Source: Meghimatium bilineatum
Lineage: Eukaryota; Mollusca; Gastropoda; Stylommatophora; Philomycidae
Direction: 5' to 3'
Length of the DNA stretch: 64,000 nt
Assembly: GCA_034231615.1 (NCBI GenBank)
Contig: CM067307.1
Location: 7,991,013-8,055,012, forward strand
Shown here piece after piece: positions 5,460 through 62,921 of the stretch (position 1 is the first letter of the stretch; every line of letters begins with the position of its first letter). Below the pieces are notes generated by a model that was not told the origin of the DNA, did no database searches, and worked only from the letters and a program-made list of their open reading frames with translations. Made by a program: the position numbers and the translations under genes.

Positions 5460-5628
5460 TCTTCTTCTTCTTCTTTAGCGTTCATTCTCAAACTCCCAAT
5501 GGATCTCCCTTGTAGCAGAACAATGGTCCTACTACTAGATTTTCAGCAGGATTTAGTCCAGAGAATGGAAATGCGTTGTGCTACCGTTTTATTTGCGCCA
5601 ATGGCCCGGCACATCCGCCTTCGGCGGG
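5460..5628 (-). mobile_element. GAA-tailed SINE, group 1
   Basis: Full-length group 1 copy. On the minus strand it starts CCGCCGAAG and ends in (GAA)n. It is flanked by the 11-bp duplication TGCCTATAGAC (5449-5459 and 5629-5639), which supports retrotransposition. The internal palindrome around AGGACCATGGTCCT is diverged. Confidence 0.85.
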
Positions 5629-5880
5629 TGCCTATAGACATTAATTATATTTTAGCTGTTGTGCTGACTACAAAGGTCCCTGTGACAGTTATTGTCAACT
5701 GAATTGTTCATTTGCATTTAGATGTTGTTTCAACCTGCTTGTAAACTGTAAAACTGTGTTTTATGTTTCTACGTGCTCTCGTATACAGTTTTACTGCAAT
5801 CCCATCTATTCACTGTCACAAAAAATTGTGAATATGTTGGGTTTTTTTCAAGACGTTTCTAGAAGGATAACCTAGCTTGT

Positions 5881-6158
5881 ATTCTTTTACGTTAATTCTC
5901 AAACTCCTGAAGATTATCAGGATGTGGTACGGAGAATGGAACATGTGGTTTCATGGTTTACAGCTAAGCTGTGATATCTGTTCCTTTTGGTCTAACACAT
6001 CCAACTTCAGCATGGCTTCTGGGTCACTTTGACACTATATGGTATGAATAGCCAACTCCACCACCAAAAGCTTCTTAGGTACCTCTTATGACATGCATGG
6101 AAGGTAAACAGTGTTTGCTATTCTTTGCTCCCCTTTTGGGCCCCCAGAAACACAGTAT
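5881..6158 (-). mobile_element. GAA-tailed SINE, group 2
   Basis: A diverged group 2 copy. In plus-strand order it has the shared 3' module (TTCTCAAACTCCTG...), a middle module (ACTTCAGCATGGCTT) and the head module (TATTCTTTGCTCCCC). Confidence 0.75.
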
Positions 6159-6326
6159 TCAAGTTAACAAATTTTTTACAATTTTGCTAGTGAAATAAAA
6201 AAAATTATTAGACCATACAAGGATTTAAATCTGTGCCCTCAAGATTGTGAGGCAGTAATTTATTTTCCCAGCCACACACTCCTTAAATTGTTCATTCATA
6301 ATGATCTCAAATAATAAACAACTCAC

Positions 6327-6444
6327 CTCTTTCTCTGATGTATTTCCAGCTGTGCCTGTGATAGTGTCCTCCATTCTTGTATGATCACCAGCATCAAGTT
6401 CAAATTTATGAACTATGAGACGACTCCCTTTGTCGAGTGCAGAT
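6327..6444 (-). CDS. probable exon 2 of unidentified gene
   Basis: On the minus strand a 118-nt segment is bounded by an acceptor (TTATTTTGATCAG, AG at 6446-6445) and a strong donor GTGAGT (6326-6321). Exon 1 at 9072-10015 ends with two bases of a codon. Here one base completes it and 39 codons follow exactly, from SALDKGSRL to NTSEKE. This phase match, plus the hydrophilic amino-acid content, makes it a good candidate for the next exon of the same gene. It ends in phase 0. No further exon was found downstream in the window. The product is not recognised. Confidence 0.6.
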
Positions 6445-6544
6445 CTGATCAAAATAAGTGGAAATAATTCCATCATTTCTTATCTACATTACGCATGCAG
6501 TTGTGTCTGTGTGTCTCACACTATACTATATATAAAGAAATAAA

Positions 6545-6657
6545 GAAGGTACAGGAAGAAATACCAGGATCACACTTTATAAAGATAGCAACATTTTAAC
6601 AGGTAAACATGCAGCTGATTACTTTGCAGATTCCTTTGCAGAAGACAATAATGTGTG
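6545..6657 (+). mobile_element. fragment of the I/Nimb LINE (linker region)
   Basis: The plus-strand sequence closely matches the complement of 2735-2835 of the LINE (GATCACACTTTATAAAGATA, CAGCTGATTACTTTGCAGA). It has 15 extra bases around TTGCAGATTCCTTTGCAG relative to that copy, so this copy may preserve the ancestral sequence. Confidence 0.8.
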
Positions 6658-7165
6658 TCTCACTAGACAAATCACCCATGCAACAGAAAACCTTAGTAGA
6701 TGACATGCTGTTACATTGAGGTTATGGTTATCTTCTTATAGAAGCTTCATGGCACGTCATCTATACAATTATCCTTCTCATGCTTTTATTTTGTTGTTGC
6801 GATGTATTTTTGTTATTTGTATATATGGATGCATCCTCTGTGGCTGGGAGGGAGCCAGAGATGTACTGCGCAGCACTGGGGAGGAGGAAACTGACAGAAC
6901 TGCTTTTTTCTATGGCTGAGGCCCATCATAGAGACACAGTGACTCAGGATGTGACAATCCTTTTGACTTGATCATTTGGTTGCATGCCTGGAGCAATAGA
7001 GAAGTTCAGCATAACTAGTAGTCAATTGGTGGTGGAGAATGGGCACAGTGAACCCTATCTTGGCTCCAGTGGCTCAGAGCTGTGCATAGGTTGAAACCTA
7101 TTTCTTTCACAATGATAATCCTGAGTTTTAAAACGTTATTATACTCTTTTTTTAAATTAAAATTT
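6658..7165. other. unassigned sequence
   Basis: I see no gene or recognisable repeat here. The segment around 6840-6960 is less AT-rich than its surroundings, but its short open frames lack splice or start context. Confidence 0.35.
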
Positions 7166-7169
7166 TGTA

Positions 7170-7320
7170 GTGTCTATTCAGATACTCCCACTGGATATCT
7201 CTTTTAGCACGACAATGGTCCAGCTAGATTTCTAGCTGGAGGTAGTTCAGAGAATGAAAATTTACTGTTTTGCAGTTTTATTTGTGTCAATGGCTTGACA
7301 CATTCAGCTTCTCTTCTGTA
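7170..7320 (-). mobile_element. GAA-tailed SINE, group 1, degenerate
   Basis: Recognised by CTCCCACTGGATATCTCTTT, GACAATGGTCC, TAGTTCAGAGAATG and TTTATTTGTGTCAATGG in the right order and spacing. Confidence 0.65.
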
Positions 7321-8160: not shown

Positions 8161-8504
8161 ACTCATCCCGCCTGTAAAAATGATATATCGTGGTAGAGAC
8201 TCCCTCATTTCAGACATATTCGCAATTATTCGTTTTTGAAGATATGCCATCTTAATTTGCTTCGTTTGGATCATAAATGACAAGTATTAACTTATTTAGA
8301 CTTTAACATTTACAAATCTCGCTAACGAAAGAAAATCATCATGGTATTGTGTGATTAAACACCTGTGACATATTTATTTTAAATTAAAATTCGAACATGG
8401 TAGGTTCAGCTTTTCTGAAATCAAGTTTGTGCAGTTCTTGATTGTTTATCCAACTAATTAATTACTTGTTGAGTAACTTATACCTTGTTCTGAATAATAA
8501 GTAA

Positions 8505-8662
8505 TCCGCCGAAGACGGATGTGTTGGGCCATTGGCGCAAATAAAACGGCAACACAACGCATTTCCATTCTCTGGACTATATTCGACTGGAAATCTTGTA
8601 GGAGCATTGTCCTGTTACAAGAGAAATCCAGCAGGAGTTTGAGAATGAACGCTGAAGAAGAA
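8505..8662 (+). mobile_element. GAA-tailed SINE, group 1
   Basis: Full-length copy from CCGCCGAAGACGGATGTG to GAACGCTGAAGAAGAA, flanked by the perfect 13-bp duplication GAATAATAAGTAA (8492-8504 and 8663-8675). One of the cleanest insertions in the window. Confidence 0.9.
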
Positions 8663-9071
8663 GAATAATAAGTAAAACTGCAGTAAAACCAAGTTCTAGT
8701 ATGTGAAAAACATGACGGTGTTTAATTGCTAATGAAACACAGAACTAAACAGTACTCTTATAACAATGACAGAGTACTATAAATGTTTCTCAATGTGGAC
8801 CATCCGGCCTCCATAAGAGGACCACAGTGTCTTTCAGAAACACTATGAAAGAAAATGTAAAAATTGACTCGTCTGGGTGGGGCACACAAAAATAATTATG
8901 TGGATTAAATCTAATAAGACATGCAACAAAAACTTCAAGGAGAATTGATAACCTCTTGTTTTAGTTTTAAGGGGTAACGAGTAAAAATTGTTCTGAAAGG
9001 CGGCCACAGGCAAAGAAAGGTTGAGAACCACTGCTAAATACCAAATCTCATAACATAGTTGTTCTACTTAC

Positions 9072-13747: not shown

Positions 13748-13748
13748 A

Positions 13749-15385: not shown

Positions 15386-18300
15386 GTCAGTGATTTATGA
15401 TTATCTTTCATGTCAGCAGATAACTCATAGTTCAGATATTGCAGATAGATAGTTTCATAGAAACTTAAATGGTAATTCCATTTTCATTCATTGGAAGAAA
15501 ATATTATAAACAAATGCACCACCTAAGAGGGATATGGTAGGCCAATGACACCACAATGCATTTCATTCTCTGGACTATGTCCTGCTTGAAATATAGTAGG
15601 ACCATTGTCCTGCTACTAGAGAGATCCAGCGGGAGTTTGAGAATGAATGCTGGAGATGTTTACCAATGCATTTGTTTTTCTGTGATCCCTAGGGGTTGTC
15701 ACTTGAAGTTACAAATCTATGTGGTACTTTTGGCAGACAGAGTTGAGAGAGACTAAGCACATATGAAAAACCCAAGTACAATGAAGTCAATCCGCTAAGC
15801 ATAAGTCAAAGATATTATGTCCTCCAAATGTTTGTTCATTGTTTGTGTTTCATATTGATTTTGAGGTATTAGCCAGCTTCTTTGTATTCAAAGCAGATCC
15901 ATTATTGATCAGACTAGAATAGATCAAAGTTTGTGCATGCTGATGGTTCTTATAACTTGCTGGTTAAATGCACTTCTCACTCTGCTTTGGATACATATGC
16001 AACATTTATCATCAAATTCTGTCCAGATATATCATTAATGACAGTGTACACATCCAGTAGGTGATTGCTAAGCAACCTAACATATATCCTTGTTCATCAT
16101 CAACTGACCGATAATGATAAATACATTCATGTAGAATATCTCTTACTTGTTAGAGAGAAAAATCAGTGTAAATAGACAAAAATAATGCATATGAACAGAA
16201 ATGAACTCAAACCTACAATATTCATTGACAAAGAACAACTTTAAAATGTCAGCAACTTTTAATATCTTAGGTAAACTATCAACAGCACAGGAGATTGATC
16301 AGCAGAGATTAGGAAGAGATTAGTAATGGCCCTACAAAAAAGCATCACAGATTTAAAAAATTTATGGCAAGAGGAAAACAGAGGAACAAAATTACAACTA
16401 TTAAGAAGCTATATTTTTCCAGTGTTAACACATGGTTGTGAGATGTGGGCAATGACATCCACTAGAGAAAATAAAATACAGCATTCAAAATGAAATCCTA
16501 AGAATATCATGGACTGAAAGATGAACCAACACAGACGTTAGCAAAGACGTGAACATAAAAGAAAACTGGCTCCTCAAAACTATTAAAAAACACAAGCTAA
16601 CATATTTTAGACATTTAAAAAGACACAATGGTTTAGAAAGATTAATCATGGAGGGAAAAGTTCCAGAAAAGAGAACAAAAGATTAACCAAGAATGGACAA
16701 AAGATGGACTCATGATATTGAAGACCTTCTGAACATAACACTGGAAGGGGCTGGGCAAATTGCACAGATCTAAGAAGCTTACAGAGTGGCAGTGAGGACA
16801 ACGCTCTGTAAAGAACACATTACATGATGAGACTATCTCTAGACAACTGTATATTTTCATATAATTACTGACAAAATTTCTCCATATTTTTCCCAAATTT
16901 AGGAGTAGTCGTCGAGAAAGCGTGATTGGTGGGTCTCCATCAACACTGGGTACAGATGAGCTTGATCGTTACTTCCCGGAGAGAAAAGTCAGTATTTTTG
17001 TTGGAACTTGGAATATGAATGAACAAAAGGTAAACTTGAAATTAGTTTGTGGAATGATGCTTACCATCTTCTTCTTCAGCATTAGTTATCAAACTTCTGC
17101 ATATTAGCAGGATGTAGTCCGGAGAATGGAAAGTGTTTCATGGTTTACAGCTTGGCTGCAATATCTGCGCCCTTTGGTTTGGCACATCCGACTTCAGTAT
17201 GACTTCTGGGTCACTTGATCATCTATGGGATAACTCCAACCCTAACATCTCATTAGCCACATCATACAGTATGTATGGCGATATTAGTGTCACTATTCTT
17301 TGCTCCCCTTTCTGGAACATACAGGAGTATACTTACCTGTTTAAATGTTTTTGCATAGAGGATTGACTGTTACCAGTATCCTCTAGCACTCTAGTATCCC
17401 ATAATATATTCTATTCCTCTCAACAGAGAGAAACAGAACGCCATACCTTCTGAGAGTGTCACTTAAAATATGTAACTCCGTAGCTGAAATAAGTACCTTG
17501 GAAAAAAAAGCTTATCTGTTCCAGGCACCATAGTTTTTTCTTCTGCATTCAATTACAAAATAACCAGCACGAGTATTCATGTGATTTGAGCCAGAGAGGT
17601 TGAAGTATATTCTGCTTCCAGTTTTACAGTGGAACTGAGTTATTTGCACCTTTCAGTATAATGTTGTGCTATTCAAACCTTCAACTTCATGTACACAATG
17701 ACTTGATCATGTCTGTTGTATGACCATACATCAGAACTTTGATTCTTGTTGCTGAAACAATATAACTGCCCTGAAACACCATCCATACTCTTGTGATCTG
17801 GTACTCAATACTATAGTGCATTCATCAATAGATGAGCACAGATATTGTCTATTATCTCCATAATTACTGAGCGTATGGGCTTCATATTTTACATGAGTGC
17901 ATTATTTCATAACCACGTTAAAGATTTATGATAAATTATTATCTCGACTGAACAGATTTATCGCAGCAGTTGCTACGAATGTCATTTTTAAGATAGCAAT
18001 GATTTGATTTTATATGGAAAATAAATTTTACAGTAATTGCTGGTATATATGTATCGTTCATTTGTTGTTACATATATTAAAAATTAAGTATTTAGAATGT
18101 ACTATTTTTTCTGTTGTGTTGAGATTATATGCAATGACATATAAAGTTAACAGTTAAACATTTGTGAAATTGTAGTATTATTTACATTCTTGTTAATATA
18201 AAATAAACGTAAACATACATTGTACTTACCATAGTCATCATCAACTTCATCCTAATGTGAAAATTGTAAGTACTAGTGGTGGCATTCTGAAATCTTCGAC

Positions 18301-41467: not shown

Positions 41468-41606
41468 CTTCTTTAGTGGTCATTCTTAAAGTCCTGCTGA
41501 ATCTCTCTTGTAGCAGGACAATGGTCCTGCTAGTTTTCCAGCAGGATGCAGTTCACAGAATGGAAATTTGTTGTGTCGCTGTTTTATTTGCACAAATTGC
41601 CAGCGA
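41468..41606 (-). mobile_element. GAA-tailed SINE, group 1
   Basis: CTTCTTTAGTGGTCATTCTT, TCTCTTGTAGCAGGACAATG, CAGGATGCAGTTCACAG and TGTCGCTGTTTTATTTGC are present. The 5' end is truncated. Confidence 0.82.
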
Positions 41607-45715: not shown

Positions 45716-45727
45716 TTGGTCACATTC

Positions 45728-46001: not shown

Positions 46002-46144
46002 GGTCACATTCATTTGTGGAATGAAAGTCGATTCTAGAAATATGGAAAATAGGTCATCAAAAATGTGACGAAGTGAGCAAAATAGGAAGTAATTATATTG
46101 AATTCAGTAAACAACATTAATTTTTTGCTCAAACTGGCCAGGTT

Positions 46145-48624: not shown

Positions 48625-48700
48625 AATAGATCTAATCAAGTTACATGACAGTTATGATGACTAGATCTATAGATCTAATCAAGTTACATGACAGTTATGA
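48625..48700. repeat. tandem duplication, 38-bp unit, 2 copies
   Basis: TAGATCTAATCAAGTTACAT + GACAGTTATGA occurs twice. Confidence 0.85.
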
Positions 48701-48726
48701 AATCACCCATGTTTTCCATGAATCCA

Positions 48727-48866
48727 AAAGGGGAGCAAATGTATGGCAACACTGTATTTGTCATGAATGTTGTAAGAAGCTACTAAAGAGGTTTTTGCGG
48801 GTGGAGTTGGCTGTCCCATCCCATAGCGGGTCAAAATGATCTGGAGTCATTCTGAAGTTTGATGTG
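48727..48866 (+). mobile_element. GAA-tailed SINE, group 2, head and middle only
   Basis: AAAGGGGAGCAAATGTATGG, GGAGTTGGCTGTCCCATCCC and CATTCTGAAGTTTGATGTG match group 2. Truncated 20 bp before a group 1 insertion. Confidence 0.7.
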
Positions 48867-48886
48867 TAAAGTTGGAAGATGAGGAT

Positions 48887-49040
48887 CCTGTCAAAGACGG
48901 GTGTGTTGGGCCATTGGTGTAAATAAAAAAGATGACTTCATTCTCTGGACTACATCTTGCTGGAAATCTAATGGGATGATTGTCCTGCTTCAAGAGATAT
49001 CCAACGAGAGTTTGAGAATGAACACTGAAGTAGAAAAAGA
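48887..49040 (+). mobile_element. GAA-tailed SINE, group 1
   Basis: Complete copy with the perfect 11-bp target-site duplication AAGATGAGGAT (48876-48886, 49041-49051). Confidence 0.88.
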
Positions 49041-49051
49041 AAGATGAGGAT

Positions 49052-49283: not shown

Positions 49284-49841
49284 AAATTTATACTTCTTCA
49301 AGGTTCTCAAAGAAAAAAATATCAAGAACATAACAGTTTTCACACATCTAAACAAGTTCTGCTAAAGGTATAGGCCTACTACACCTTCTCCACCAATGGT
49401 AGTCTTGAAGCAAGACTGGCGCCTGTATTATTTATTAAAATCAGAAAACAACAAAAATTTAACAGGCAATGAATAATACTGAGCATACAACAAAAATCCT
49501 AACAATATTTTGATGGAATGTACCTGGAATAGTAAAACAAATTGCCAGGAAGGATAAGTGTTAAAGCCATGCCTTTATATAATTTAAATAAAATATTCAT
49601 GTCCAAACTTGGTCACATATTCTCTCATTCTGAAATATAACAGCAAATATTTTTATGTTGACCACCTCCCCCAGTAACAGGGAATGGTAGTCATATAGCT
49701 TGCAATGTCACAGTGTTGTGAGATATAACCTACCTCACACTACCTAGCTCCAGTTTTCTTATGGTGAAGTGGTCAGTGCTTTTTCTTGTGTTTACTATCC
49801 CAATTGTGCTAGGTTGACCACTCTGGGTTTTCAAATCAAAA

Positions 49842-49999
49842 CTCCACCAAAGACGGATATATCAGGTCACTGGTGCAAATAAATCAATGACATCCCATTT
49901 CCTTTCTATGGATTACATCCTGTTGGAAATCTAGTAGGATCATTGTCCTGCTACAAGAGATATTCAGTGGGAGTTTGAGAATGAACGTTGAAGAAGAAG
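49842..49999 (+). mobile_element. GAA-tailed SINE, group 1
   Basis: Complete copy flanked by the 9-bp duplication AAATCAAAA (49833-49841, 50000-50008). Confidence 0.85.
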
Positions 50000-50190
50000 A
50001 AATCAAAATATTGAACTTATCCATTCTCCAGTACTAATGTCTATAATGCCTAGTATATCTTAGTCCACGCTAATATTTATTCTTGTCGAGGAACATTATT
50101 TAAGAACAAATACAAATCTGTTATTAAATAATTCAAGAAAATATTATACAGTGATGTTTATATGTCAAGGGATTCATATCAAAATTCTAT

Positions 50191-50350
50191 CTTCTTCTTC
50201 GTCGTTCATTCTCAAACTCCCAACTGGATCTGCCTTACAGCAGAACCATGGTCTTACTATATTTCCAGCAGGATGTAGTCCAGAGAATGGAAATGCGTTG
50301 TGTCGCCGTTTTATTTGTGCCCGTGTCCCGACACATCCATCTTCGGCTGG
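50191..50350 (-). mobile_element. GAA-tailed SINE, group 1
   Basis: Complete copy. CTTCTTCTTCGTCGTTCATT through CACATCCATCTTCGGC. Flanks are similar but no exact duplication is visible. Confidence 0.85.
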
Positions 50351-50484
50351 AAAAAATTATATAACTCTATTATTATTTACTAACCTAGACCCTAAAGCAT
50401 CTTCAGGTAGAACATCCATGAAAGTTATAATGAACGTAATGACTGCCACCATCTTTCTGATTGTCACCACTTCAACACCAAATT

Positions 50485-50645
50485 CTTCTTCTACAGCGTT
50501 CATTCTCAAACTCCCGCTAGATCTCTTTTGTAGCAGGACAATGGTTCTACCAGATTTCTAGCAGAACGAAATGCAGAGAATGGAAATGCATAGTGTCGCC
50601 GTTTTATTTGCACCAATGGCACGACACATCCATCTTCAGCAGTAA
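50485..50645 (-). mobile_element. GAA-tailed SINE, group 1
   Basis: Complete copy 135 bp from the previous one, in the same orientation. Confidence 0.83.
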
Positions 50646-50649
50646 CCCT

Positions 50650-50860
50650 ATATAACTGTCACCATCTTTCCACCCTGATTGTCACCACCTTCAACCCCAT
50701 ATGACTGTCACTATCTTTCCACCCTGCCTGTTTGTCACCACCTTCAACCCCATATGACTGTCACCATCTTTCCATCTTACTTGATTGCCTCTTTCCACCA
50801 TACTTGACAGTCACCATCTTTCCGTCATACACTGAATGTCATCTTTCCACCATGTTTAAC
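50650..50860. repeat. degenerate tandem repeat, TGTCACCATCTTTCCACC unit
   Basis: Five to six units of 35-55 bp, diverged. Confidence 0.75.
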
Positions 50861-51496: not shown

Positions 51497-54400
51497 CTGT
51501 AACACATACAAAATTTATGAAACTGAAGAACTTTATATAATTATGTTTAGTGCAGTAATCTTACATCATTCTGCAACCTTTTCACAATATTTGTATTGGA
51601 AGCCTGTCTGGCACAGTTAATAAATTGTCATTGACACAACTCATATTCTTAACATTGAAACTATTCTAATGAAGTCAAAGATTCCTTGGGTAAATGATAT
51701 CCCTAACATTGACACTATTCTAATACATGTGCATTAGAATAGTGTCAATGTTAGGGATATCATTTCCCCAAGGAATCTTTGACTGCATTAGAATGTGTCA
51801 ATGTTAGGGATATCATTTCCCCAAGGAATCTTTGACTTCATTAGAATGTGTCAATGTTAGGGATATCATTTTCCCAAGGAATCTTTGACTTCATTAGAAT
51901 AGTGTCAATGTTACGGATATCATTTTCCCAAGGAATCTTTGACTTCATTAGAATAGTGTCAATGTTAGGGATATCATTTCCCCAAGGAATCTTTGACTTC
52001 ATTAGAATAGTGTCAATGTTAGGGATATCATTTCCCCAAGGAATCTTTGACTTCATTAGAATGTGTCAATGTTAGGGATATCATTTCCCCAAGGAATCTA
52101 TGACTTCATTAGAATGTGTCAATATTAGGGATATCATTTACCCAAGGAATCTTTGACTTCATTAGAATGTGTCAATGTTAGGGATATCATTTCCCCAAGG
52201 AATCTTTGACTCCATTAGAATAGTGTCAATGTTAGGGATATCATTTCCCCAAGGAATCTTTGACTTCATTAGAATGTGTAAATGTTAGGGATATCATTTT
52301 CCCAAGGAATATTTGACTTCATTAGAATAGTGTCAATGTTAGGGATATCATTTTCCCAAGGAATCTTTGACTCCATTAGAATAGTGTCAATGTTAGGGAT
52401 ATCATTTCCCCAAGGAATCTTTGACTGTGGGCCGACACGATTACCAACACCATGTCATGGACTATCAGAAAATGTAATACTATCTGCTCTTAATAAAAGG
52501 TAAAGGTAGGTCCCATGATAGCAACCTGCCATTGGGTATCAAGATAACTCTTCATGTACTAAACTCCTTATTAAAGCGCCCAAAAAAAATCCCATTTATT
52601 TGCCCTTACTTCTGCATTCATTCCTAAACTTCTGCTAATTAACATAAAGCAGTTATGGATGCATCGTTTTATGTTTTACAGTTTGGCTGTGACATCTCTG
52701 CATATCAACCTGACACATCCAACTTTAGCATAGCATTTTTGGTCATTGATCTTTCTTAACCAACCCCATGCCCAACCTCCTTAGCCAACTCTTACAACAT
52801 GCATTTAAAAAAGTCAGTGTTACTTTTCTCTGCCACCCTTTGGCTCCTGAGAACACACAAGCACTGCCTAGCTTATCAAAAACACTTATAATATTTAATT
52901 TTTTCTAGCCTTGCTTTAAAAAAAACAATATGCATGTATCTGCCCAGTCCAGAAGGAAAAAAAGAGGAATGTACCTGCTCGGAATAACAATCTGCTGGCA
53001 AGGGAGGGTAATCACATTGCTCAATCTTCTTACACAAAGAAAATAAATTCATCTTGTCTCCATAAAAAGGTGACTGCAAAGCTGCCATCTGAAACAAATC
53101 AAAGAAATATCCAGAAATAGCTACAGAGAGGTATCTGAACAAAATAACACACAGATTATCTACGCTAGTGCATCTGCTGTGGTAGCTTTTTTTTTCTTTT
53201 CTACACCAGCTCTCAAACCCCTGTAGATTAGCAAAATTTAGCCTGGAGAACAGAATACATTATGGTTTACAGCTTGGCAACAATATCTGTGCCTGTTGGT
53301 CTGACTTCAGCATAGTTTCTGGGTCACTTGGCCCTCGCCTCTTACAACTTGAATGGCAGGTAACATTGTCACTATTCTTTGCTCTCCTTTTGGGCTCTGG
53401 CAACACTTGAGCAAGGTTGGAGTAATTTTAGTAAAAGTACATTTTGTTGTTGGTTTACAAAAGTGCAGCAATATTTAGCGAAGCACATTATTTTGTGCAT
53501 TTGTTGTCATTTTCTTTGAAAAGCTAAAAGACACACCTAACCTTCCTTAATCTCCTCTTATATATGTATACATAATAGTAATAGACTTAATATGATTTCT
53601 TCTGCTTTTAGTAACACACTGATGAGTCAAAGTGTTTAAGTGCTACTCTCATAACTTTTATAACTAAATCATAGTTATATTCCTCTCACATAACTAAAAA
53701 TGAGAATTATAAAATGCTACATCTATTCTATATTAATGTATGGCTCAGAAACATGGACAATGAACAAACAACTCTTGAAACAGAATTGATGCCTTTAAGA
53801 TGTGGATATATAGAAAAATAGGGAGAACATCATGGAAAGATAAGAAAACAAACAAAGAGGTTCTAACAACACTTTGTATGAAAAAAAAACCGATTATATT
53901 GTCTATTGTTTTTTAAAACTGGTTGATAGCATCCACACTTGCCGTTAAGCGTAGGGGTAGGAGCTGTAAGTTTCAAAACCAGATGTGATGCCTCAGTTGT
54001 ACTGAGTCCATGTTTGTGGAGGGTGGTCGTGATGTTATCGATCCATCTCTTTCTCAGTCTTCCCTTTGCTCTGTATCCCGCTGACCGTTTGTTATAAGCT
54101 CTCAGTGGTATTTGGCTTGGGTCCATTCTGATAAGGTGACCAAACCACTTTATCTGCTGACGTTCTATATATTCGATACAAGGCATTGTTCCTACTGTTT
54201 TTCTGAAACCTTCATAATTTCGTACTCTGAGCAGTTTGGTGACCATAGCTGCTTTTCTTAAACACTTTATCTCACATGTGATAATTTTTCTCTGCTGCGA
54301 GGTTGTTAAAGACCATGTTTGTCATTGGTAACAAAGTGTTGGTATTAAAATTGTAGATATTATCTGTCTATTTATGTCCATATTGATTTTTGGATGCAGG

Positions 54401-57400
54401 AGTAATGGTAAAAGTTGATAAGTCACTGCATTTTATTTCTAACATCTTGATACTATTTCTCTGACCAGTTTTCCATTTTCTGAAAAAAAAACACTTCCTA
54501 AATATTTGAATTCTTTTGTTTGTTTCACTGCTGAAACTATTAAAGAACTATTAAAGGAAATAAAGATCAAACAAAGAAAAATATTTTGGACATATTAAAA
54601 GACATGACACAACACATTGTTGAAGACCTTACTTGAGAGTAAAGTTAAGAGAAGGCGAGCAAGAGGGAATCAGAGATACAAGTAGGAGAGTAATACAACA
54701 GGATGGACATGTTACAGTCTAGCAGCATGCACCAACAAAGTAGGAGACAGTGGATGTTTGAAGGTCCATTGCAGCCAACCTATATTGTAGAGATGGCACT
54801 TGATGATGAATTCCAACATTAACTACAGCAGAAACACATCACAAAATGTATCGCAAGAATATCTCACCAAAGACACATAATAGAACAAAATAATTTGACA
54901 AAGAAAAAACACAAATGTCACATTGAAATCACATTACCTCATATAGTAGACATCCCAGGGACCAAATGTCTGATTTAAAGTTGTAGGCTTTCTCGTGGAT
55001 TCTCTCTGGGGACATGTAGTATGGTGTCCCAACTGCAACAAGGAGTGATAGATACAATCATCAGCAACATACCTTATTATATACAATCACTAGTCAAATA
55101 TAGGGCTACATACGAACATCAACTACACACAAACTACATATGGTGATCAGCCACAAACAGCATTAGATACAAACACTATTCACAAACAGTGCTACACACA
55201 ACCACGATCCACAGAGTTACATATAAAAACCATCGCACAATCAGGGCTACACAAAGACCATCTCACAATAGGGATAAACAAAGACCATCTCACAATCAGG
55301 GCTACACAAAGACCATATCACAATCAGGGCTACACACAGACCATCTCACAATCAGGGCTACACTAAGACTATCTCATAATCAGGGCTACATACAACTACT
55401 ATCTACAAACAGAGCTACTTACAATCATTATTCACAAATGGTGCTGCATACAACCAGCTGCCAAAAACGGTTACATACAATCCCAGACATGCGTAATACA
55501 TAACCACACACAAGAATCAACAATATATATTCATGACTGGGTAGATGGCCGAATGGCTAGAGCATCAATCTCAGAACCACATGGAACTGTATGCAGTTAT
55601 GTATACACATCTGGGATTGTGTGCAGGCATGACTCAGATTCAAACCACGGTTGGGACTGAATGTTATCTTCCAGCTTGGGACTGGATGTTATCTTCCATC
55701 TTGGGACTGGATGTTATCTTTCACAGGTACAATAAATAAACTCTTCTTGTACATGCTGTGTCAAAAACTATTGCAAAGCAGCCTTTATTTCCACTGCCCA
55801 CAAACAGTCATGGTACAAAACTAAAGCAGGTCTCAGAGTTAAAATATTTAGGAAGCGTCTTTACAGAAAATGGCAAACTCGATAGAGAGATCGAAACAAG
55901 ATGTCAGAAAGCCAATGCTGTAACTTACCAGCTATCGCCAGTACTTAAACACCCATCAATCTGCATGGGTACAAAATTACAACTGATAAAAAGTATTTTA
56001 TACCAACTCTGTGTTACCAGTGTCAGTGTATCTTGACAAAGATACTAGTGAAAAAGATCTCAGTATGTGAAATGAGATATTTGGGGAACGCTATAAATGT
56101 CACAAGAAGAATCAGGTGGAGAAATTAAGATATTAGGAAAGAAATAAAGACTATCTCAAGTCAAGAGTACATCGAAAGACAGCAAACGAAAGACAGATGG
56201 TTTGGTCGCTTCATGAGAATTGAATAAACGTGACCAGCGCTTCGTGCATATAACAGCAGAAGATGGAGCTATAATGCACGAGGAAGACCAAGAACTTCTT
56301 GGGTAGAGATAATCAAAGAAACCTTAATGAGACACGGCTAACCAAGGTAAATGCAACCTAAATGGCCAAACTCAAAGGAGATAACTCCAATTTTCCCTCA
56401 TGACGATTAACAGCAAAAGTGGAAATGATTCTTCTTCTTCTGCGTTCGTTCTCAAACTCCTGCAGATTAACAGGATGTAGTCCGGAGAATGGAATGTGTT
56501 GTGTCATGGTTTACAGCATTGTTGCGATATCTGACACATCCGACTTCAGCATGGCTTTGGGTCACTGACCATATATGGCTATATGGGATGGGACAGCCAA
56601 CTCCATCCCATAACCTCCTTAGTCGCCTTAAACGACATGCGTGGAAGGTAAACAGTGTTGCTATTCTTTGCTCTCCTTTCGGGCCCCGGCAACACACGGG
56701 CGGTGGAAATTATAAAAGCCCCCCCTCCAAACTCCTTAATATAATAAGGTACTAAGCATTGTTTATAAAATCATCAATATGTCATTACATTCGAACACCA
56801 TAACATACATGTATTACATATATGCATTAGTCACAGACCATTAAAAAAACATCACAAAAGTATCTTTTTTTTTCTTGTGGGTGTGTTCAGTGGTGTTAAA
56901 GTAAGAATAGTTCAAACAAAATATATCCATATTGTAGGGCACAGCTAACCAAATATATCCATATTGTAGGACACAGCTAACCAAATATATCTTTTTGGGG
57001 ACACAGCTAACCAAATATATCCATATTGTAGGACACAGCTAACCAAATATATTCAGAAAGGGCTATACCACAACATCAACAAACCTAGAGACGTTGCACA
57101 GCATCTACAAACCTACAAACTTAGAGACATCACACATAATCTACAAACCTAGAGACATCGCTGCTGTTGTCTTGGAGCTGAAGAATCTACCAAGACCAAG
57201 GTCACCCAGTTTGACAATTCCCTGGGCAGTGATGAAAACATTGGCAGGTTTAATATCTGAAACAATTCAAATGAATGGCATAGACATAAAATCTTTTTAA
57301 ATTATAATATATAAGAATGATATACTTCTGCATTCGTTCTCAAACTCCTGCAGATTAGCAGGATGTAGTCCGGAGAATGGAATGCGCTGTGTTATGGTTT

Positions 57401-60400
57401 ACAAAATTGTTGCGATGTATGCGCTTTTCGGCCTGACACATTAAACTTTAGCATGGCTTTAGGTCACTTTTACTCTATATGGGATGGACAGCCAACTGTG
57501 TTGCTATTCTTTGTTCCCCTCTCGAGCCCTGGCAACACATGGGTGAATGATATACTAAAGTCTGCTTAGCAATGCTAAACCGCCGAAGACGGATGTGTTG
57601 GGCCATTGGCGCAAATAAAAAGACAACACAACGCATTTCCATCCTTTGGACTACATCCTACTGGAAATCTAGTAGGACCATGGTCCTGCTGTAAGGGAGA
57701 TCCAGCCGAAGTTTGAGAATGAACGCTGAAGAAGAAGAATTTGATGGAAGATAAAAGTAAGAAATTGAGTCAAGATGCGACAATGATGATTTTTTTAACA
57801 AGTTACAGCTTGTCAGCCCATTCACCAACTTTTCTTAGTTGCCTCTTATGACATGTCTGAAAAGAAGACAGCAACCTGTTCTTTGTACTCTGAACTAGAA
57901 GTCCAGGCCCTGGTTGCCACACAGTCTAATTTATTCAATATACTTCTTCTTCAGTCGTTGATTGATTGTGAGAAGAATTACTGCACTCCAGGTAAACCCA
58001 TAGGTTCACAGTCTCTCCATGCTGATATGCATGATGATGATTTCAGTGTCTCGATTGTTGAACACAAACCTCATTCTGTCCCTCAGATTCAAGTCCTACT
58101 CATACCACACTGAATACAAATTTCTCCCAATGGAGAATTCTGTGATTCTGCTGTCTTCTACCAGATGGCTTCACACACTCCATACCCAGACTTTCTTATT
58201 CACTTTGGGCAATATAGAAAGTCTGGTAGTAAGGTAAGTCTGGCAGTAAGGTAAGTCTGGCAATAAAGTAATCTGTCATTATAGGTAAGTCTGGTAGTAA
58301 GGTAAGTCTGGCAATAAAGTAAATCTGTCAATAAGGTAAGTCTGGAAGTAAGGTAATTCTGGTAATAAGGAAATTCTGGTAATAAGGAAATTCTGGTAAT
58401 AAGGAAATTCTGGTAATAAGGAAATTCAAGTAATAAGGAAATTCTGATAATAAGGAAATTATGGCAGTAAGGAAATTCTAGCAATAAGGAAATTCTAGCA
58501 GTAAGGAAATTCTGGCAGTAAGGAAATTCTAGTAATAAGGAAATTCTGGCAGTAAGGAAATTCTAGTAATAAGGAAATTCTGGCAGTAAGGAAATTCTAG
58601 TAATAAGGAAATTCTGGCAGTAAGGAAATTCTAGTAATAAGGAAATTCTGGCAGTAAGGAAATTCTAGTAATAAGGAAATTCTGGTAATAAGGAAATTCT
58701 AGTAATAAGGAAATTCTAGTAATAAGGAAATTCTGGTAATAAGGAAATTCTGGCAGTAAGGAAATTCTGGCAGTAAGGAAATTCTGGTAATAAGGAAATT
58801 ATGGTAGTAAGGAAATTATAGTAATAAGGAAATTATAGTAATAAGGAAATTATAGTAATAAGGAAATTCTTGCAGTAAGGAAATTCTTGCAGTAAGGAAA
58901 TTCTGGCAGTAAGGAAATTCTTGTAGTAAGGAAATTCTGGCAGTAAGGAAATTCTTGCAGTAAGAAATTCTGGCAGTAAGGAAATTCTTGCAGTAAGAAA
59001 TTCTTGCAGTAAGGAAATTCTTGCAGTAAGGAAATTCTTGCAGTAAGGAAATTCTTGCAGTAAGGAAATTCTGGCAGTAAGGAAATTCTTGTAGTAAGGA
59101 AATTCTTGCAGTAAGGAAATTCTGGCAAAAAGGAAATTCTTGCAGTAAGGAAATTCTGGCAGTAAGGAAATTCTTACAGTAAGAATAGAAGAGGTAATCA
59201 AAGAATATTCTAAGATTATCAAATAATTACACAGACCTCTGTGCATGATTCTTTTTGAGTGCATGTGATCAAGAGCGCTGCAGATCTGAAAAAAGTACTT
59301 CCAGATGGTCTTCTCAGGAATAAGTCGACACTGCTTCTTAAAATGCTGTTGAAAAAAAAAATATGTTAACTTAAGTAAGTTGTACTTGTTATATTGATGT
59401 TAACTTAATGGAGTTATACTTGTTATATTGATGTTAACTTAAGTGAGTTATACTTATTATATTGATGTTAACTTAAGTAAGTTGTACTTGTTATATTGAT
59501 GTTAACTTAAGTAAGTTGTACTTGTTATATTGATGTTAACTTAAGTGAGTTATACTTATTATATTGATGTTAACTTAAGTAAGTTATACTTATAATATTG
59601 ATGTTAACTTAAGTAAGTTATACTTATTATATTGATGTTAACTTAAGTAAGTTGTACTTATTATATTGATATTAACTTAAGTAAGTTATACTTATTATAT
59701 TGATGTTAACTTAAGTAAGTTATACTTATTATATTGATGTTCAATGCTACATAACCCCCCTATACAATATATCCATATGTTAGTATAGGGGGGTTATGTA
59801 GCATTGAAGGGTTCCCTTCCTCACATCTAATGACAGGGTCATATTACACAATATATTTTTAATTTTTCTGAATTCAAAAGTATATAGAGTTACAAAACTA
59901 AATATGTTCAAATGTCAAAATTATATGTCCTCTCAAGAATTTGTTGATAAATTGCTATTGTTGTTGTGTTTATATAGGTAGTTCAAAAGAAAGACTACCT
60001 ATTGTGGGTGTATTGATCAAGGTAGATCTGATGATAAAATAATTTATTATAAAAAGACAAAATGTTTAACCTTTTCCTTCTTTTGAAAAAAAAAAAAAAA
60101 AGATGGCAGCTTGAAGTATGAGTTTCTAAAGTAAATTAAAAAAACTGCAGTAACATTTATAAAATGTCTTGTTACTAACTCTTATCATTCGTCCCAGGTC
60201 TCCTGCATCAGCCAGCTCCAAGACAATGTTCAGTTCATTATTCTCAATGAATGAATCCAGGTACTTAATAACATTAGGGTGGTCCAGTTGCTGAAATAGA
60301 AGTATTTCCAGATTTTAATGTGTTCTAACTTTGCAATCCAATCTGGCATACAATATGTAAAGCAGTCTCAAAGTTTCGAAAATCAAAAATGCTATTTTAT

Positions 60401-61671
60401 TTTATAATTTGAAAAATTTTAATGTAAGCACATTTTTGGCATAAAAGGTAATGGCAGTTCAGAACATAGTTATCAACCAAGAATTGTTTAGCTGTAGGCA
60501 ATATAGTTAGATTATATTATAGGCAATATACATATCTTCAGTAGGTTGCCATTGCTTTCTGAACAATCCCTACACACAATTGCCTGCGTCAGGGTTTCTT
60601 CTTCTTCATCATTCATTCTCAAACTCCCACTGGATATCTCTTGTGGCAGGACCATGGTCCTATTAGATTTCCAAAAGGATGTAGTCCAGAGAATGGAACT
60701 GCGTTGTGTCACTGTTTTATTTGCACCAATGGCCTGACACATCCGTCTTCGGCGGAGCGGCAGGGTCTGAGCTTGTACCTTTAGGCCTACTACTGTACCT
60801 GTCTGCTACAGAACTGGACAATTTTGATCATGACAAACCATTGTTTATACTAAATTAAGTCATAAAAAAGACTACAAATGGAGGTTCTTTCCTAGGAACC
60901 GGACTTATATTTCCCACTTATTACACTATTTATCAATATTAGTATGTCAAGTGTTACAATGAAAAACACATGTAGTGAAATTTTTTAAAACCTGAAAATT
61001 AATTTGGTCCATACCTAAAAATAATCAAGTCCTGAAAGAGTTAATAGATAGAATTAGAAACGATAACATCCGACAGATAACCAAAACAATACCAGTATTG
61101 AAAAACATGTGCACAAATTATTTTAAAATCTCTAAAAACAGAAAAGTTATTGCGTTTACCAAACACCCACTAAAAATAACACACATTTTCAAAAAATAAT
61201 CCAGTGGCAGGGGAGAGATTGTGTTATTTTAATTCAGTGTGCTAGAGGTTAAGATGACATTGAAAGAAAATATTAATTTAACAGTTACAACATCTATTTT
61301 AAACATCACCAAAATAGGAAAGACACATCATAAAAAATTCAAGTAAGACATAAAATGTACAGGTGAGACACATCATAAAAAGTACAGGTGGTCTCACCTG
61401 TGTCTACATCATAAAAAAATTAGGTAAGACATCATAAAAAGTATACGAGAGACACACCATAGAACTACATGAAAGACACATTATAAAAACTACAGGAAAA
61501 TCCTACCTCTTGACAGGTAATATACTGGTAATATATTTATTCCAACACTAGTATACATATAACTTTCCCTCCCAATGAACTTGATAAGAATTCTACCACT
61601 AGACTCACCTTCAATAAATCAATCTCTTTCATGCAGTCATTTCTAGCTTTGGCATCCATCATCTCAAAGAT
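51308..61671 (-). CDS. NEK6/NEK7-type serine/threonine kinase (7 exons, N-terminus outside window)
   Basis: Minus-strand exons, in order: 61671-61609, 60290-60180, 59345-59237, 57256-57149, 55032-54938, 53088-52975, 51496-51308. All junctions are phase-consistent with GT/AG, giving 262 residues. The kinase runs from helix C ([16 protein letters not shown]) through hinge [12 protein letters not shown], catalytic MHR|DIKPAN, DLGLG (DFG equivalent, as in NEK6/7), activation loop [31 protein letters not shown], to [19 protein letters not shown] and the absence of any domain after the kinase other than the tail identify NEK6/7 rather than larger NEKs. The family acts in mitotic spindle and centrosome signalling; NEK7 also in the NLRP3 inflammasome of vertebrates. 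The glycine loop exon(s), about 60 residues, must lie above 64000. KYLDSF resembles NEK6 and VNMCINPDP resembles NEK7, so this is likely the single pre-duplication gene. The C-terminus carries a Gln-rich extension. Confidence 0.93.
51640..52427. repeat. 54-bp minisatellite, about 14 copies, first units inverted (NEK last intron)
   Basis: Unit TCAATGTTAGGGATATCATT + TCCCCAAGGAATCTTTGACT + TCATTAGAATAGTG. The first 1.5 units (51640-51724) are in inverted orientation, creating a hairpin with 51-nt arms at 51674-51724 / 51733-51783 (one mismatch, 8-nt loop). Confidence 0.95.
52608..52861 (-). mobile_element. GAA-tailed SINE, group 2 (NEK last intron)
   Basis: TTCTGCATTCATTCCTAAAC, ATCAACCTGACACATCCAAC and TTCTCTGCCACCCTTTGGC in group 2 order. 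Same orientation as the gene. Confidence 0.75.
52975..53088 (-). CDS. NEK6/7 kinase exon ([11 protein letters not shown])
   Basis: 114 nt, phase 0 at both ends. The acceptor is TTGTTTCAG and the donor GAGCAG|GTACAT. Encodes the kinase helix F to helix G region: [31 protein letters not shown]. Confidence 0.94.
53192..53412 (-). mobile_element. GAA-tailed SINE, group 2
   Basis: Eroded copy: CTCTCAAACCCCTGTAGATT, AATATCTGTGCCTGTTGG and TATTCTTTGCTCTCCTTTTG. Confidence 0.7.
53695..54840 (+). mobile_element. old LINE remnant interrupted by a second LINE fragment
   Basis: The plus-strand remnant 53695-53878 plus about 54540-54840 is one element, as shown by the uninterrupted copy at 7925-8160. 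Between the halves lies a minus-strand LINE fragment. Confidence 0.7.
53863..54540 (-). pseudogene. nested LINE C-terminal fragment
   Basis: A minus-strand frame (54246-53863) reads [39 protein letters not shown] and [13 protein letters not shown], the LINE post-RT tail. Inserted in the older plus-strand LINE. Related to 55750-56390 and 31450-31795. Confidence 0.75.
54938..55032 (-). CDS. NEK6/7 kinase exon (GTPYYMSPE)
   Basis: 95 nt. The acceptor is CCTTGTTGCAG and the donor TATGAG|GTAATG. Encodes (V)[17 protein letters not shown] and [14 protein letters not shown]: the P+1 loop, the APE-equivalent SPE and subdomain IX. Confidence 0.94.
55190..55465. repeat. minisatellite, 28-bp unit, about 9 copies
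   Basis: Unit ATCTCACAATCAGGGCTACA + CAAAGACC, degenerate at both ends, in a NEK intron. Confidence 0.88.
55535..55742 (+). mobile_element. possible tRNA-derived SINE remnant
   Basis: GATGGCCGAATGGCTAGAGC resembles a pol III A box, and CAGATTCAAACCACG about 90 nt on resembles a B box. It is followed by a 20-bp tandem CTTGGGACTGGATGTTATCT (three times) and an AATAAATAAA end. Confidence 0.5.
55750..56390 (+). mobile_element. RTE/Jockey-like LINE ORF2 remnant
   Basis: The frame reads [40 protein letters not shown] and [18 protein letters not shown], the RT thumb and post-RT region. It frameshifts near 56035 and continues as EYIERQQ(T)K...[14 protein letters not shown]. Interrupted by stops. 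Confidence 0.85.
56428..56701 (-). mobile_element. GAA-tailed SINE, group 2
   Basis: Near-complete copy; flanking GTGGAAAT at 56419 and 56703 may be the target-site duplication. Confidence 0.85.
56927..57055. repeat. 32-bp tandem repeat, 4 copies
   Basis: Unit CCAAATATATCCATATTGTA + GGACACAGCTAA. Confidence 0.93.
57149..57256 (-). CDS. NEK6/7 kinase exon (DIKPANVF)
   Basis: 108 nt. The acceptor is TTGTTTCAG and the donor CTCTAG|GTTTGT. Encodes [20 protein letters not shown], then [16 protein letters not shown]: catalytic loop, DLG metal motif and the activation segment with phosphorylatable Ser/Thr. Confidence 0.94.
57327..57544 (-). mobile_element. GAA-tailed SINE, group 2, internally deleted
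   Basis: Flanked by the perfect 12-bp duplication GAATGATATACT (57315-57326, 57545-57556). Part of the middle/head between CAGCCAACT and GTGTTGC is missing. Confidence 0.87.
57582..57740 (+). mobile_element. GAA-tailed SINE, group 1
   Basis: Complete copy: CCGCCGAAGACGGATGTGTT to GAATGAACGCTGAAGAAGAA. Antisense to the NEK gene. Confidence 0.88.
57770..57945 (-). mobile_element. group 3 dispersed repeat, head fragment
   Basis: The complement of this segment (TGTGTGGCAACCAGGGCCTG, GTCTTCTTTTCAGACATGTC, AGAGGCAACTAAGAAAAGTT) matches 24300-24450 and 40105-40250. Confidence 0.7.
58205..59185. repeat. 17-bp minisatellite, about 57 copies (NEK intron)
   Basis: Unit AGTAAGGAAATTCTGGC in plus orientation, with variants AATAAGG, TTCTAGT, TTCTTGC; the left edge is built on AGGTAAGTCTGGC. 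Sense (minus) strand units read TTTCCTTACTGCCAG. It begins 50 nt after the donor of the 59237 exon. Confidence 0.96.
59237..59345 (-). CDS. NEK6/7 kinase exon ([10 protein letters not shown])
   Basis: 109 nt. The acceptor is TTTTTTTTTCAACAG and the donor CAGAG|GTCTGT. Encodes [36 protein letters not shown], helix E up to the His-Arg of HRD. Confidence 0.94.
59358..59740. repeat. 34-bp minisatellite, about 11 copies
   Basis: Unit GTTAACTTAAGTAAGTTATA + CTTATTATATTGAT, starting 12 nt upstream of the exon's acceptor on the minus strand, so it abuts the branch-point region. Confidence 0.95.
59740..59808. repeat. perfect 26-bp inverted repeat (hairpin)
   Basis: Arms 59740-59765 and 59783-59808 (TTCAATGCTACATAACCCCC + CTATAC and complement), loop of 17 nt. 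Confidence 0.95.
60180..60290 (-). CDS. NEK6/7 kinase exon ([11 protein letters not shown])
   Basis: 111 nt, phase 0-0. The acceptor is CTTCTATTTCAG and the donor ATAAGA|GTTAGT. Encodes [37 protein letters not shown], strands 4-5 and the hinge. Confidence 0.94.
60597..60759 (-). mobile_element. GAA-tailed SINE, group 1
   Basis: Complete copy in a NEK intron, sense orientation. CTTCTTCTTCATCATTCATT to CATCCGTCTTCGGCGG. Confidence 0.87.
61330..61500. repeat. degenerate tandem repeat, GACACATCATAAAAAGTACAGG unit
   Basis: Six irregular units of 22-35 bp in a NEK intron. Confidence 0.75.
61609..61671 (-). CDS. NEK6/7 kinase exon (helix C)
   Basis: 63 nt, phase 0-0. The acceptor is ATTCATGTTTCAG and the donor TTGAAG|GTGAGT. 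Encodes [20 protein letters not shown](K), containing the helix C Glu that pairs with the catalytic Lys of the missing upstream exon. Confidence 0.93.
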
Positions 61672-61757
61672 CTGAAACATGAATGAGAGATGACAGATGA
61701 TGGTGGCAGACCCTGAAAGCATGAGTTTGTCAAGCTTGTTCCCTTATGCTAGGTGAT

Positions 61758-61915
61758 TATTCTTCAGCATTCATTCTCAAACTCCAGCTGGATCTCTCTT
61801 GTAGAAGGAAAATGGTCCTACTAGATTTCCAACAGGAGGCAGTCCAGAGAATGGAAAATGTGTTTTGTTACTATTTTATTTGTGCCAGTGTCCTGACACA
61901 TTTTTCTTCAGTGGA
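61758..61915 (-). mobile_element. GAA-tailed SINE, group 1, diverged
   Basis: CAGCATTCATTCTCAAACTC, GGTCCTACTAGATTTCCAAC and GCCAGTGTCCTGACACAT are recognisable. Sense to the gene. Confidence 0.78.
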
Positions 61916-61929
61916 ATGCTAAGTGATGA

Positions 61930-62634
61930 AGTTCTACTTTCAGCTCCTATTGGTGATTCAAGAATTACTATTTGATAGAGAAGTTTTCCAAAGCTTTAGC
62001 AAGCCTAAATTACTATTTACTTAAGGTGGATGTAGGGTGAAATACCATGAGTTGAGCTGTTTTCTACTTCAAGAGATCTTTGAAGGTGATTTTCTGCAAT
62101 CTCAAACATTGTTCTCTCTAAGTTGTGTAGCATGTGCACTCATCAGAAGGTTTTGTGCATATGATTTAACATTCTGTGCACAAAATCCAGAACTGCAGAC
62201 TTCTTCCTGTTCGAAGTTTAGTATGTCTACACAGTAAGTCCAGTTTTCTTAATAAATACTGCTGTATTTGAAAGCTCCTCAGTGCTCCCAAACAGCTTTC
62301 TGTGGATATCCGTCTCTATGGGCCAGTATTCCTCCCTTCAAATATATACTTAAAAATGTCTTCAAATACTACATCTAGTAATTTGCTCATGCAACTTTAT
62401 GTGTGTTGAAACCACCATCTGATCAACATATGCAGGACATTTTATTAGAGGGAGCGTAGATCTCGACACTCAGTAAACAGTCCCCATATTAGTAGGCAAG
62501 TTATGGATCAAATAAAAGGGTTCATTTTCTCTCAGCTGTCCAAGCATGGGTCTTCTGAAGTCTTCCTAACAGATGACAAAAGGTATACATAATAGTGGCT
62601 TCTGTGGCTCACAGATTGAAAATTCTTTTCATTC
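61930..62634. other. NEK intronic sequence, nothing recognised
   Basis: No exon or known repeat. I looked on the minus strand for the VALKK glycine-loop exon and did not find it. Confidence 0.4.
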
Positions 62635-62645
62635 ACTACTATAAA

Positions 62646-62921
62646 CCGCCTGTGTGTTGTCGGCCCGAAAGGGGAGCGAAGAATAGCAACACTATTTACC
62701 TTCCATGCATGTCGTAAAAGGCGACTAAGGAGGTTATGAGAATGAGTTGGCTGTCCCATCCCATATAGGGTCAGTGACCCAAAGCCATGCTGAAGTCGGA
62801 TGTGTCAGGCCGAAAGGCGCAGATATCGCAGCACTGCTTTAAACCATGACACAGCGCATTCTGTTCTCTGGACTACATCCTGCTAATCTGCAGGAGTTTG
62901 AGAACGAACGCAGAAGAAGAG
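62646..62921 (+). mobile_element. GAA-tailed SINE, group 2
   Basis: Well-preserved copy: TGTGTGTTGTCGGCCCGAAA, TGCATGTCGTAAAAGGCGAC, GCCATGCTGAAGTCGGATG and GAACGAACGCAGAAGAAGA. Flanks ACTACTATAAA (62635-62645) and ACTACAATAAA (62922-62932) are a target-site duplication with one mismatch. Confidence 0.88.

Follow-up and report, generated by a model that had tools for sequence, protein, structure and literature searches.

Non-coding SINEs of the gastropod Meghimatium bilineatum probably derive from the end regions of Ingi-like LINEs

The genome of the gastropod Meghimatium bilineatum carries three groups of short interspersed elements (SINEs) that we read as non-autonomous retroposons derived from the end regions of Ingi-like long interspersed elements (LINEs) with a single open reading frame (ORF), a reading to which we give a probability of roughly 0.7. 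The work started from a window of 64,000 nucleotides (nt), by which we mean the whole stretch analyzed (contig CM067307.1, C10:7991013-8055012, in a genome of 1,612,235,226 bases on 32 contigs). Alignments cover the window and 54 fetched loci (prefixed L), and genome-wide counts are pattern searches and hence lower bounds. The SINEs look like composites of LINE ends, resembling short internally deleted elements (SIDEs) or RIME, and not like tRNA-derived elements, because they share a folded domain (D5) and the 3' end with the LINEs, have target-site duplications (TSDs) of similar size and precise ends, and show no RNA polymerase III (pol III) head.

D5 spans 59 nt; its outer stem encloses a smaller hairpin of the form GCC-loop-GGC, after which comes GCA. 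We trained a structure-aware covariance model (R1) on nothing but SINEs, using 20 copies that were picked by eye, for the most part from the better matches (in group 1, 12 of the 26 that span the full domain; in group 2, 8 of 17). R1 was run against 291,929 bases from 30 sources, in which LINE 5' regions were represented by three copies of family A, one each of families C and D, and the internally deleted copy L024. Trained without LINEs, R1 found D5 near all five LINE 5' ends other than the deleted one, with Expect values (E) that are rough for models of this short-calibrated type: 5.8e-8 (L020), 3.8e-7 (L010) and 2.1e-5 (the window) for LINE A, 2.2e-5 for LINE C (L029) and 2.3e-4 for LINE D (L006). 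A LINE C copy fetched later, L030, gave 3.4e-6. The 70 matches with an E of 1e-3 or better comprised 63 group 1 or 2 SINEs, the five LINEs and two group 3 relatives (L014 and L016), and none lay outside the SINE/LINE set. D5 is present, then, in three LINE families, and it does not sit at the very 5' terminus of the LINE.

SINEs form the outer stem of D5 from TGTGTC/GACACA. In LINE A it is GGCAAC/GTTGCC or GGCATC/GATGCC, and LINE D has GATGCC/GGTATC. In alignment A2, eight of the nine pairs show a two-sided change in at least one copy, with 26 both-side cells against 9.1 in shuffles (0/500), although A2 was fitted to the model structure, so that pair counts lean towards the fold, and related copies inflate the number of cells. 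One varying stem pair within LINE A, read by eye in the first 100 of 3,568 genome-wide matches, is A-T in 29, T-A in 70 and mismatched in 1; this swap is clean, although it amounts to a single double change passed on by descent.

The 3' end is the second link. The exact tail motif GAACGCWGAAGAAGAA occurs at 4 places in the window, at 10 with up to one mismatch and at 19 with up to two, two of which (17550 and a LINE end at 38511) are not ends of group 1 or 2 SINEs. Genome-wide there are 54,222 exact places versus 4 for the reversed motif, and the longer SINE end GTTTGAGAAYGAACGCWGAAGAAG is found at 85,158 places in 1.61 Gb at up to one mismatch (reversed control, 0). A preliminary description of the window, made from its letters alone, had all SINE copies end in GAACGC(T/A)GAAGAAGAA and took the tail as their link to the LINE. 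The shared tail stands, though it is decayed in many copies; "all" overstates it in view of the window counts, and the link was incomplete, as the SINEs also carry the folded domain found near the LINE 5' end.

Twenty tails that do not appear in the SINE-end listing were picked by eye from 100 listed exact-motif places, after L001, L007, six places already known as LINE C and those beyond 4.3 Mb had been set aside; eight were assigned, by eye, to group 3, five clearly and one weakly (L047) to LINE C, five to group 1 or 2, and L035 to none, with L049 and L052 looking like duplicates. These two loci (C1:3930220 and C1:4188980) lie about 260 kb apart and have the same arrangement of LINE C and SINE. 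The third SINE group has D5 and a tail like those of groups 1 and 2, with a longer body; D5 and GAGAGCGAACGCTGAAGAAG are seen in L036, L037, L041, L048, L051 and L054, with variants in L038 and L050. Two old relatives of this group (L014 7058 and L016 5401) end in GCGAAYGC and then AAAACAAA, not in GAA repeats.

The LINE features of the window are as follows.

276 to 4174, reverse strand: LINE A copy reaching from the 5' end to the tail, its frames broken and short internal stretches deleted (endonuclease, reverse transcriptase and RNase H by Pfam); 96% identical to L010 over 3.8 kb; TSD AGCATAAATT
276 to 300, reverse strand: LINE A 3' end GTGAACGAAAGAAGAAG
4010 to 4064, reverse strand: D5 domain near the LINE A 5' end, by R1; part of the domain also by the sequence-only model R2 described below
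4100 to 4174, reverse strand: candidate hepatitis delta virus (HDV)-like ribozyme at the exact LINE A 5' terminus, by a strict descriptor; same in L010 at 4862 and L020 at 5638
6538 to 6654, forward strand: LINE A fragment
38496 to 39285, reverse strand: LINE A copy, 5'-truncated, same tail; 98% identical to L010; RNase H by Pfam

Two LINE ends thus lie in the window (295 and 38515, both reverse strand). Three LINE A copies that run from 5' end to tail measure 3.9 to 4.0 kb and have TSDs of 10 to 12 bp. In L010, one long ORF is followed by a frameshift, and the roughly 380 nt from the 5' end to the endonuclease (EN) domain leave no room for an ORF1; the window copy encodes EN, reverse transcriptase (RT) and RNase H domains. 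I/Nimb LINEs have an ORF1 upstream of the EN-RT ORF. The earlier I/Nimb label therefore does not fit a LINE with a single ORF, and we take LINE A to be Ingi-like, using this clade name provisionally.

LINE A ends GTGAACGAAAGAAG, and its 3' end GTGAACGAAAGAAGAAG occurs at 21,241 genome places at up to one mismatch (control, 0). It does share GAACG and the GAA tail with the SINEs, as first described, but its tail GAACGAAAG differs from their GAACGCW, and the exact match lies in LINE C, which ends GAACGCAGAAGAAG. Among the first eight exact-tail loci, L005 had no SINE match but carried a LINE C ending CATGCTGAACGCAGAAGAAG. The LINE C end is found at 2,835 genome places at up to one mismatch (control, 0), all five copies fetched are LINE C, and their TSDs measure 10 to 14 bp. 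LINE C matches the EN, RT and RNase H proteins of LINE A in broken frames, with identities of 44% in the EN region and 51 to 54% in two RT pieces; across all EN or RT pieces that were compared, C and D share 44 to 57% identity with A. Hence, another LINE family matches the SINE tail better than the one first named, yet it is a relative of LINE A: the proposed LINE lineage holds, and the copy in the window is not the best match within it. A related end, GGCGAACGCAAGAAGAAG, was seen in one copy (L009). Behind other presumed LINE frames, none of 15 downstream flanks of 600 nt, some of them interrupted, had the tail motif with up to two mismatches; 12 of these 15 frames are taken as LINEs by resemblance only (Pfam had no match for the two queries). 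LINE C appears to start with CCT and a run of 16 G (L029 1066, forward strand; L030 165, reverse strand); the flanking repeats in L029 also read CCTGGGG, which leaves the boundary uncertain in that copy.

Directly ahead of the tail, LINE C and the SINE consensuses fold a hairpin in which the two SINE groups differ by a compensatory change (group 1, CATTCTC/GAGAATG; group 2, CGTTCTC/GAGAACG). LINE A hardly folds one (-1.2 kcal/mol, last 37 nt), and the hairpin was dropped as a trait of the whole LINE set.

Profiles built on 31 group 1 and 14 group 2 copies (nhmmer) placed 16 group 1 and, depending on how small fragments are treated, 12 to 15 group 2 SINEs in the window, remnants included, which agrees with the at least 16 and 12 copies reported at first. 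The following were located by nhmmer; TSDs given as a sequence are exact by script where so marked.

5458 to 5637, reverse strand: group 1 SINE; TSD GTCTATAGGCA, exact by script
7163 to 7313, reverse strand: group 1 SINE, decayed
8496 to 8671, forward strand: group 1 SINE; TSD GAATAATAAGTAA, exact by script; D5 at 8508-8566 (R1)
15510 to 15662, forward strand: group 1 SINE, decayed
19857 to 20033, reverse strand: group 1 SINE; TSD ACTATGTGTCT, exact by script
27339 to 27479, forward strand: group 1 SINE, decayed
34154 to 34260, forward strand: group 1 SINE, two pieces
40448 to 40622, reverse strand: group 1 SINE; TSD GAACCAACC, exact by script
41463 to 41603, reverse strand: group 1 SINE, decayed
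48882 to 49043, forward strand: group 1 SINE; TSD AAGATGAGGAT, exact by script
49836 to 50006, forward strand: group 1 SINE; TSD AAATCAAAA, exact by script
50183 to 50361, reverse strand: group 1 SINE
50477 to 50652, reverse strand: group 1 SINE
57571 to 57745, forward strand: group 1 SINE, exact tail (tail motif search)
60592 to 60759, reverse strand: group 1 SINE
61752 to 61924, reverse strand: group 1 SINE
5868 to 6162, reverse strand: group 2 SINE
17060 to 17331, reverse strand: group 2 SINE
29909 to 30183, forward strand: group 2 SINE
33843 to 33946, forward strand: group 2 SINE, partial
34685 to 34799, reverse strand: group 2 SINE, partial
45713 to 46013, reverse strand: group 2 SINE; TSD GAATGTGACC, exact by script
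48697 to 48881, forward strand: group 2 SINE, 5' part, adjoining a group 1 copy
52606 to 52866, reverse strand: group 2 SINE, decayed
53193 to 53416, reverse strand: group 2 SINE, decayed, two pieces
56419 to 56716, reverse strand: group 2 SINE; TSD ATTTCCAC
57311 to 57560, reverse strand: group 2 SINE, two pieces; TSD AGTATATCATTC, 12 bp, by eye
62634 to 62930, forward strand: group 2 SINE; TSD of 12 bp with one mismatch; D5 at 62789-62862 (R1)

All nine copies for which TSDs had been claimed have one: seven exact by script (5458, 8496, 19857, 40448, 45713, 48882 and 49836), one with a mismatch and one by eye. Half of the near-full-length SINE copies (24 of 48; 18 of 32 in group 1 and 6 of 16 in group 2) have an exact TSD of at least 7 bp at the 5' boundary, with a length of 8 to 13 bp and a median of 11, and swapping flanks between copies gave 61 matches in 2256. 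The other 24 copies may have lost their TSD by decay or may never have had one. The comparison of TSD lengths proposed in the preliminary description shows SINEs (8 to 13 bp) and LINEs (10 to 14 bp in eight copies) to be alike.

The impression that neither SINE group has an obvious tRNA head is borne out. ARAGORN found no tRNA gene, and Rfam no tRNA or 5S match on the SINE places; the one sub-threshold Rfam tRNA match in the window (44368-44440) lies away from them. Pol III A and B boxes scored no better than in shuffles (best scores 16 and 18 of 23, equaled by 495 and 320 of 500 shuffles). A head from tRNA, 5S, 7SL or small nuclear RNA was rejected. A likeness of one group 2 copy (62780-62846, overlapping D5) to Giardia GlsR16 was discarded as chance, with 22.4 bits against a cut-off of 100 and an E of 0.006 for the short stretch and 1.2 for the window.

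Several observations weigh against a derivation of the SINEs from LINE ends. Outside the GAA repeat, the 3' identity between SINEs and LINEs extends over only about 7 nt, and the first 150 nt or so of group 2, like most of the SINE body, are without a LINE counterpart among the sequences compared. R1 missed the D5 of L024. A sequence-only model (R2) on the same alignment gave E values of 0.0012 for L029 and 0.019 for the LINE in the window and did not list L010, L020 or L006 at an E of up to 10; full SINE profiles (nhmmer) found among the LINEs only L006 (E 0.018). The lean of the pair counts mentioned above belongs here as well. Because the sequence-only model and the full profiles are weak on LINEs, the likeness of D5 between SINEs and LINEs lies mainly in folding. 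The coding status of D5 is a further point. In LINE A (L010) it ends 16 nt before the first in-frame methionine, in a frame that is open without an upstream methionine, and is part of the 5' untranslated region (5'UTR), but it could be coding in LINE C, since the EN frame of L029 and L030 is open through D5 with methionines on both sides. Translation through D5 gives dissimilar-looking peptides in A and C, in keeping with conservation at the RNA level.

The same points bear on the view that only the tail is shared, the SINE head being of other origin, the LINE 3' end borrowed and the D5 likeness due to chance or convergence. The sequence identity in D5 is indeed limited outside GCYGAAGWCGGA, GCC..GGC-GCA and ACGCA, blastn of the SINE consensuses against LINE C returns weak pieces only, and R2 finds, weakly, two of five LINEs. 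Yet a model that had seen no LINE recovered all five intact 5' regions and, at its threshold, nothing beyond the SINE/LINE set, and the outer stem covaries; we consider shared tails alone an unlikely explanation.

A closer competitor is that the SINEs are direct SIDEs of one lost or unsampled LINE with group 2 or 3 ends, later shrunk to group 1, and we regard this as quite possible, if somewhat short of an even chance. SIDEs are known from the ingi lineage (PMC4035085). Group 3, with D5, the tail and a longer body, would suit such a descent, and one locus shows a product of this kind: L024 2455-2711 (reverse strand) is an internally deleted LINE A copy in which approximately the first 217 nt are joined to the last 43 nt, with no TSD found. 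This single copy is the only case in which two LINE ends were seen joined directly. No direct parent was found for groups 1 to 3, no clear LINE with a group 2 head lay beside the 9 head-only matches examined, and the SINE 5' ends do not carry the LINE A 5' terminus.

Age is the last point against our reading. Median divergence from consensus is 12.8% in group 1 (minimum, 5.7%) and 16.5% in group 2 (minimum, 4.7%), and pairwise differences are 2.6 to 4.1% among three LINE A copies and 3.4 to 3.5% among three LINE C copies, these LINE copies being full-length or having exact tails, which favors young ones. Within this biased sample the LINE A and C copies appear to postdate the bursts of SINE insertion. 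The present LINE A is less likely to have moved the SINEs because their copies are several times more diverged than its own, and an older representative of the LINE lineage may have been the partner, since the compared copies of both A and C are younger than the SINEs. The preliminary description held that the LINE machinery mobilizes the SINEs. Precise 5' ends, LINE-sized TSDs and the GAACG-(GAA)n end uphold mobilization of the LINE type; that the LINE A of the window itself moved the group 1 and 2 copies now seems very improbable. GAACG-(GAA)n and the TSD size are common to both, but the tail of LINE A differs where that of LINE C matches exactly, and LINE A as sole partner was rejected on this ground and, with the sampling bias in mind, on age.

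Homology alone gives no direction, and the greater divergence of the SINE copies would also suit a LINE that acquired D5 and the tail, whether from a SINE or from a host RNA common to both. However, Rfam shows no host RNA family above its cut-off, and D5 appears to be old in the LINEs, as it is present in three families, of which C and D share 44 to 57% identity with A in those EN or RT pieces; we think such a transfer scarcely probable.

HDV-like ribozymes form a double pseudoknot with stems P1, P2, P3 and P4 and C-N-R-A in J4/2, and cut at their 5' end. The first 75 nt of LINE A fit this fold, with P1 (CCCCATC/GATGGGG) from the first base, P2 (GGCCAG/CTGGTC), P3 (ACC/GGT), P4, and CTAA in J4/2. 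A strict descriptor, written after LINE A was seen, has three matches in 629,688 nt, all of them LINE A 5' ends and none in a SINE. Because the descriptor is post hoc and does not match the L006 or L024 copy, and because Rfam has no match for 4100 to 4174 of the window or for L010, the LINE A 5' end is a candidate HDV-like ribozyme only. Such ribozymes are known in the L1Tc/ingi lineage (PMC4035085).

The window holds other features. Long minisatellites lie at 21491-23003, 27805-28486, 36720-37512, 51732-52426, 58217-59183 and elsewhere (units of 33, 22, 54, 17 bp and more; 66 tandem-repeat rows in 64 kb). A weak protein kinase match below the Pfam cut-off (58833-59399, reverse strand), possibly an NEK-type exon, adjoins the 17-bp minisatellite, and an open frame at 28550-28963 (forward strand) resembles, in our estimation, the C-terminal end of a Ty3/gypsy integrase.

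How do these SINEs compare with known systems? In SINE-LINE pairs that share a 3' tail, a tRNA- or 7SL-derived SINE has a 3' end matching the LINE; here no tRNA, 5S or 7SL head and no pol III boxes were found, and a domain of the LINE 5' region is present instead. The Vingi-derived non-autonomous families of hedgehogs arose from an Ingi-related LINE by internal deletion. In the RIME/ingi and NARTc/L1Tc pairs of trypanosomes, the short element is likewise a truncated LINE, and the 5' ends of L1Tc/NARTc and ingi/RIME share a 77-nt stretch that is a promoter and an HDV-like ribozyme, in the account given by PMC4035085. The SINEs described here, in contrast, lack the LINE 5' terminus and ribozyme and share the inner D5, a domain common to several LINE families and several SINE groups alike. 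The R2 SIDEs of Drosophila also join the 5' and 3' ends of a LINE RNA and are moved in trans (PMC3414825), but they keep the 5' ribozyme and sit in rRNA gene loci, whereas our SINEs are dispersed in tens of thousands of copies. Persaeus, a SIDE of the CR1 LINE Zenon in Lepidoptera, is similarly of high copy number and consists of the 5'UTR and 3' end of its LINE; its identity to the ends of that LINE is 71 to 99% (PMC6740152), and here the 5' likeness is mainly one of fold and the 3' likeness is short. Among the papers listed by full-text searches, none deals with these SINEs or with D5. As that comparison does not extend to the work on gastropod SINEs by Luchetti et al. and Matetovici et al. 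that PMC11203168 cites, our claim to novelty is limited, and D5 may turn out to have a name already among SINE domains.

If the SINEs indeed stem from LINE ends, an RNA with D5 and GAACGCW(GAA)n ends would be taken up in trans by the LINE protein, which would read the GAACG-(GAA)n end for priming and insert the copy with TSDs of 8 to 13 bp. D5 would be kept in the SINEs as something needed by the LINE protein or for the element's own transcription; because the SINEs encode nothing, its role would presumably be in RNA recognition or transcription, not in translation. We tentatively propose, as a possibility somewhat below an even chance, that D5 is a second RNA handle, such that the LINE protein must grip the GAACG-(GAA)n end and, in addition, a folded domain on the 5' side; at least three separate SINE groups would then owe their success to having kept exactly these two.

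The choice of RNA by a LINE is usually read from the 3' end alone. That non-coding SINEs keep a covarying LINE 5' fold argues that 5' RNA structure also matters for movement in trans. With two handles, group 1, at about 160 nt, would be near the minimal retrotransposable RNA for this LINE lineage, and its short element offers a compact system for the two-handle model. SIDEs of non-LTR elements are called rare in PMC6740152, which names fruit flies, a mosquito and Trypanosoma brucei; the more than 85,000 SINE ends present here at up to one mismatch stand against that rarity.

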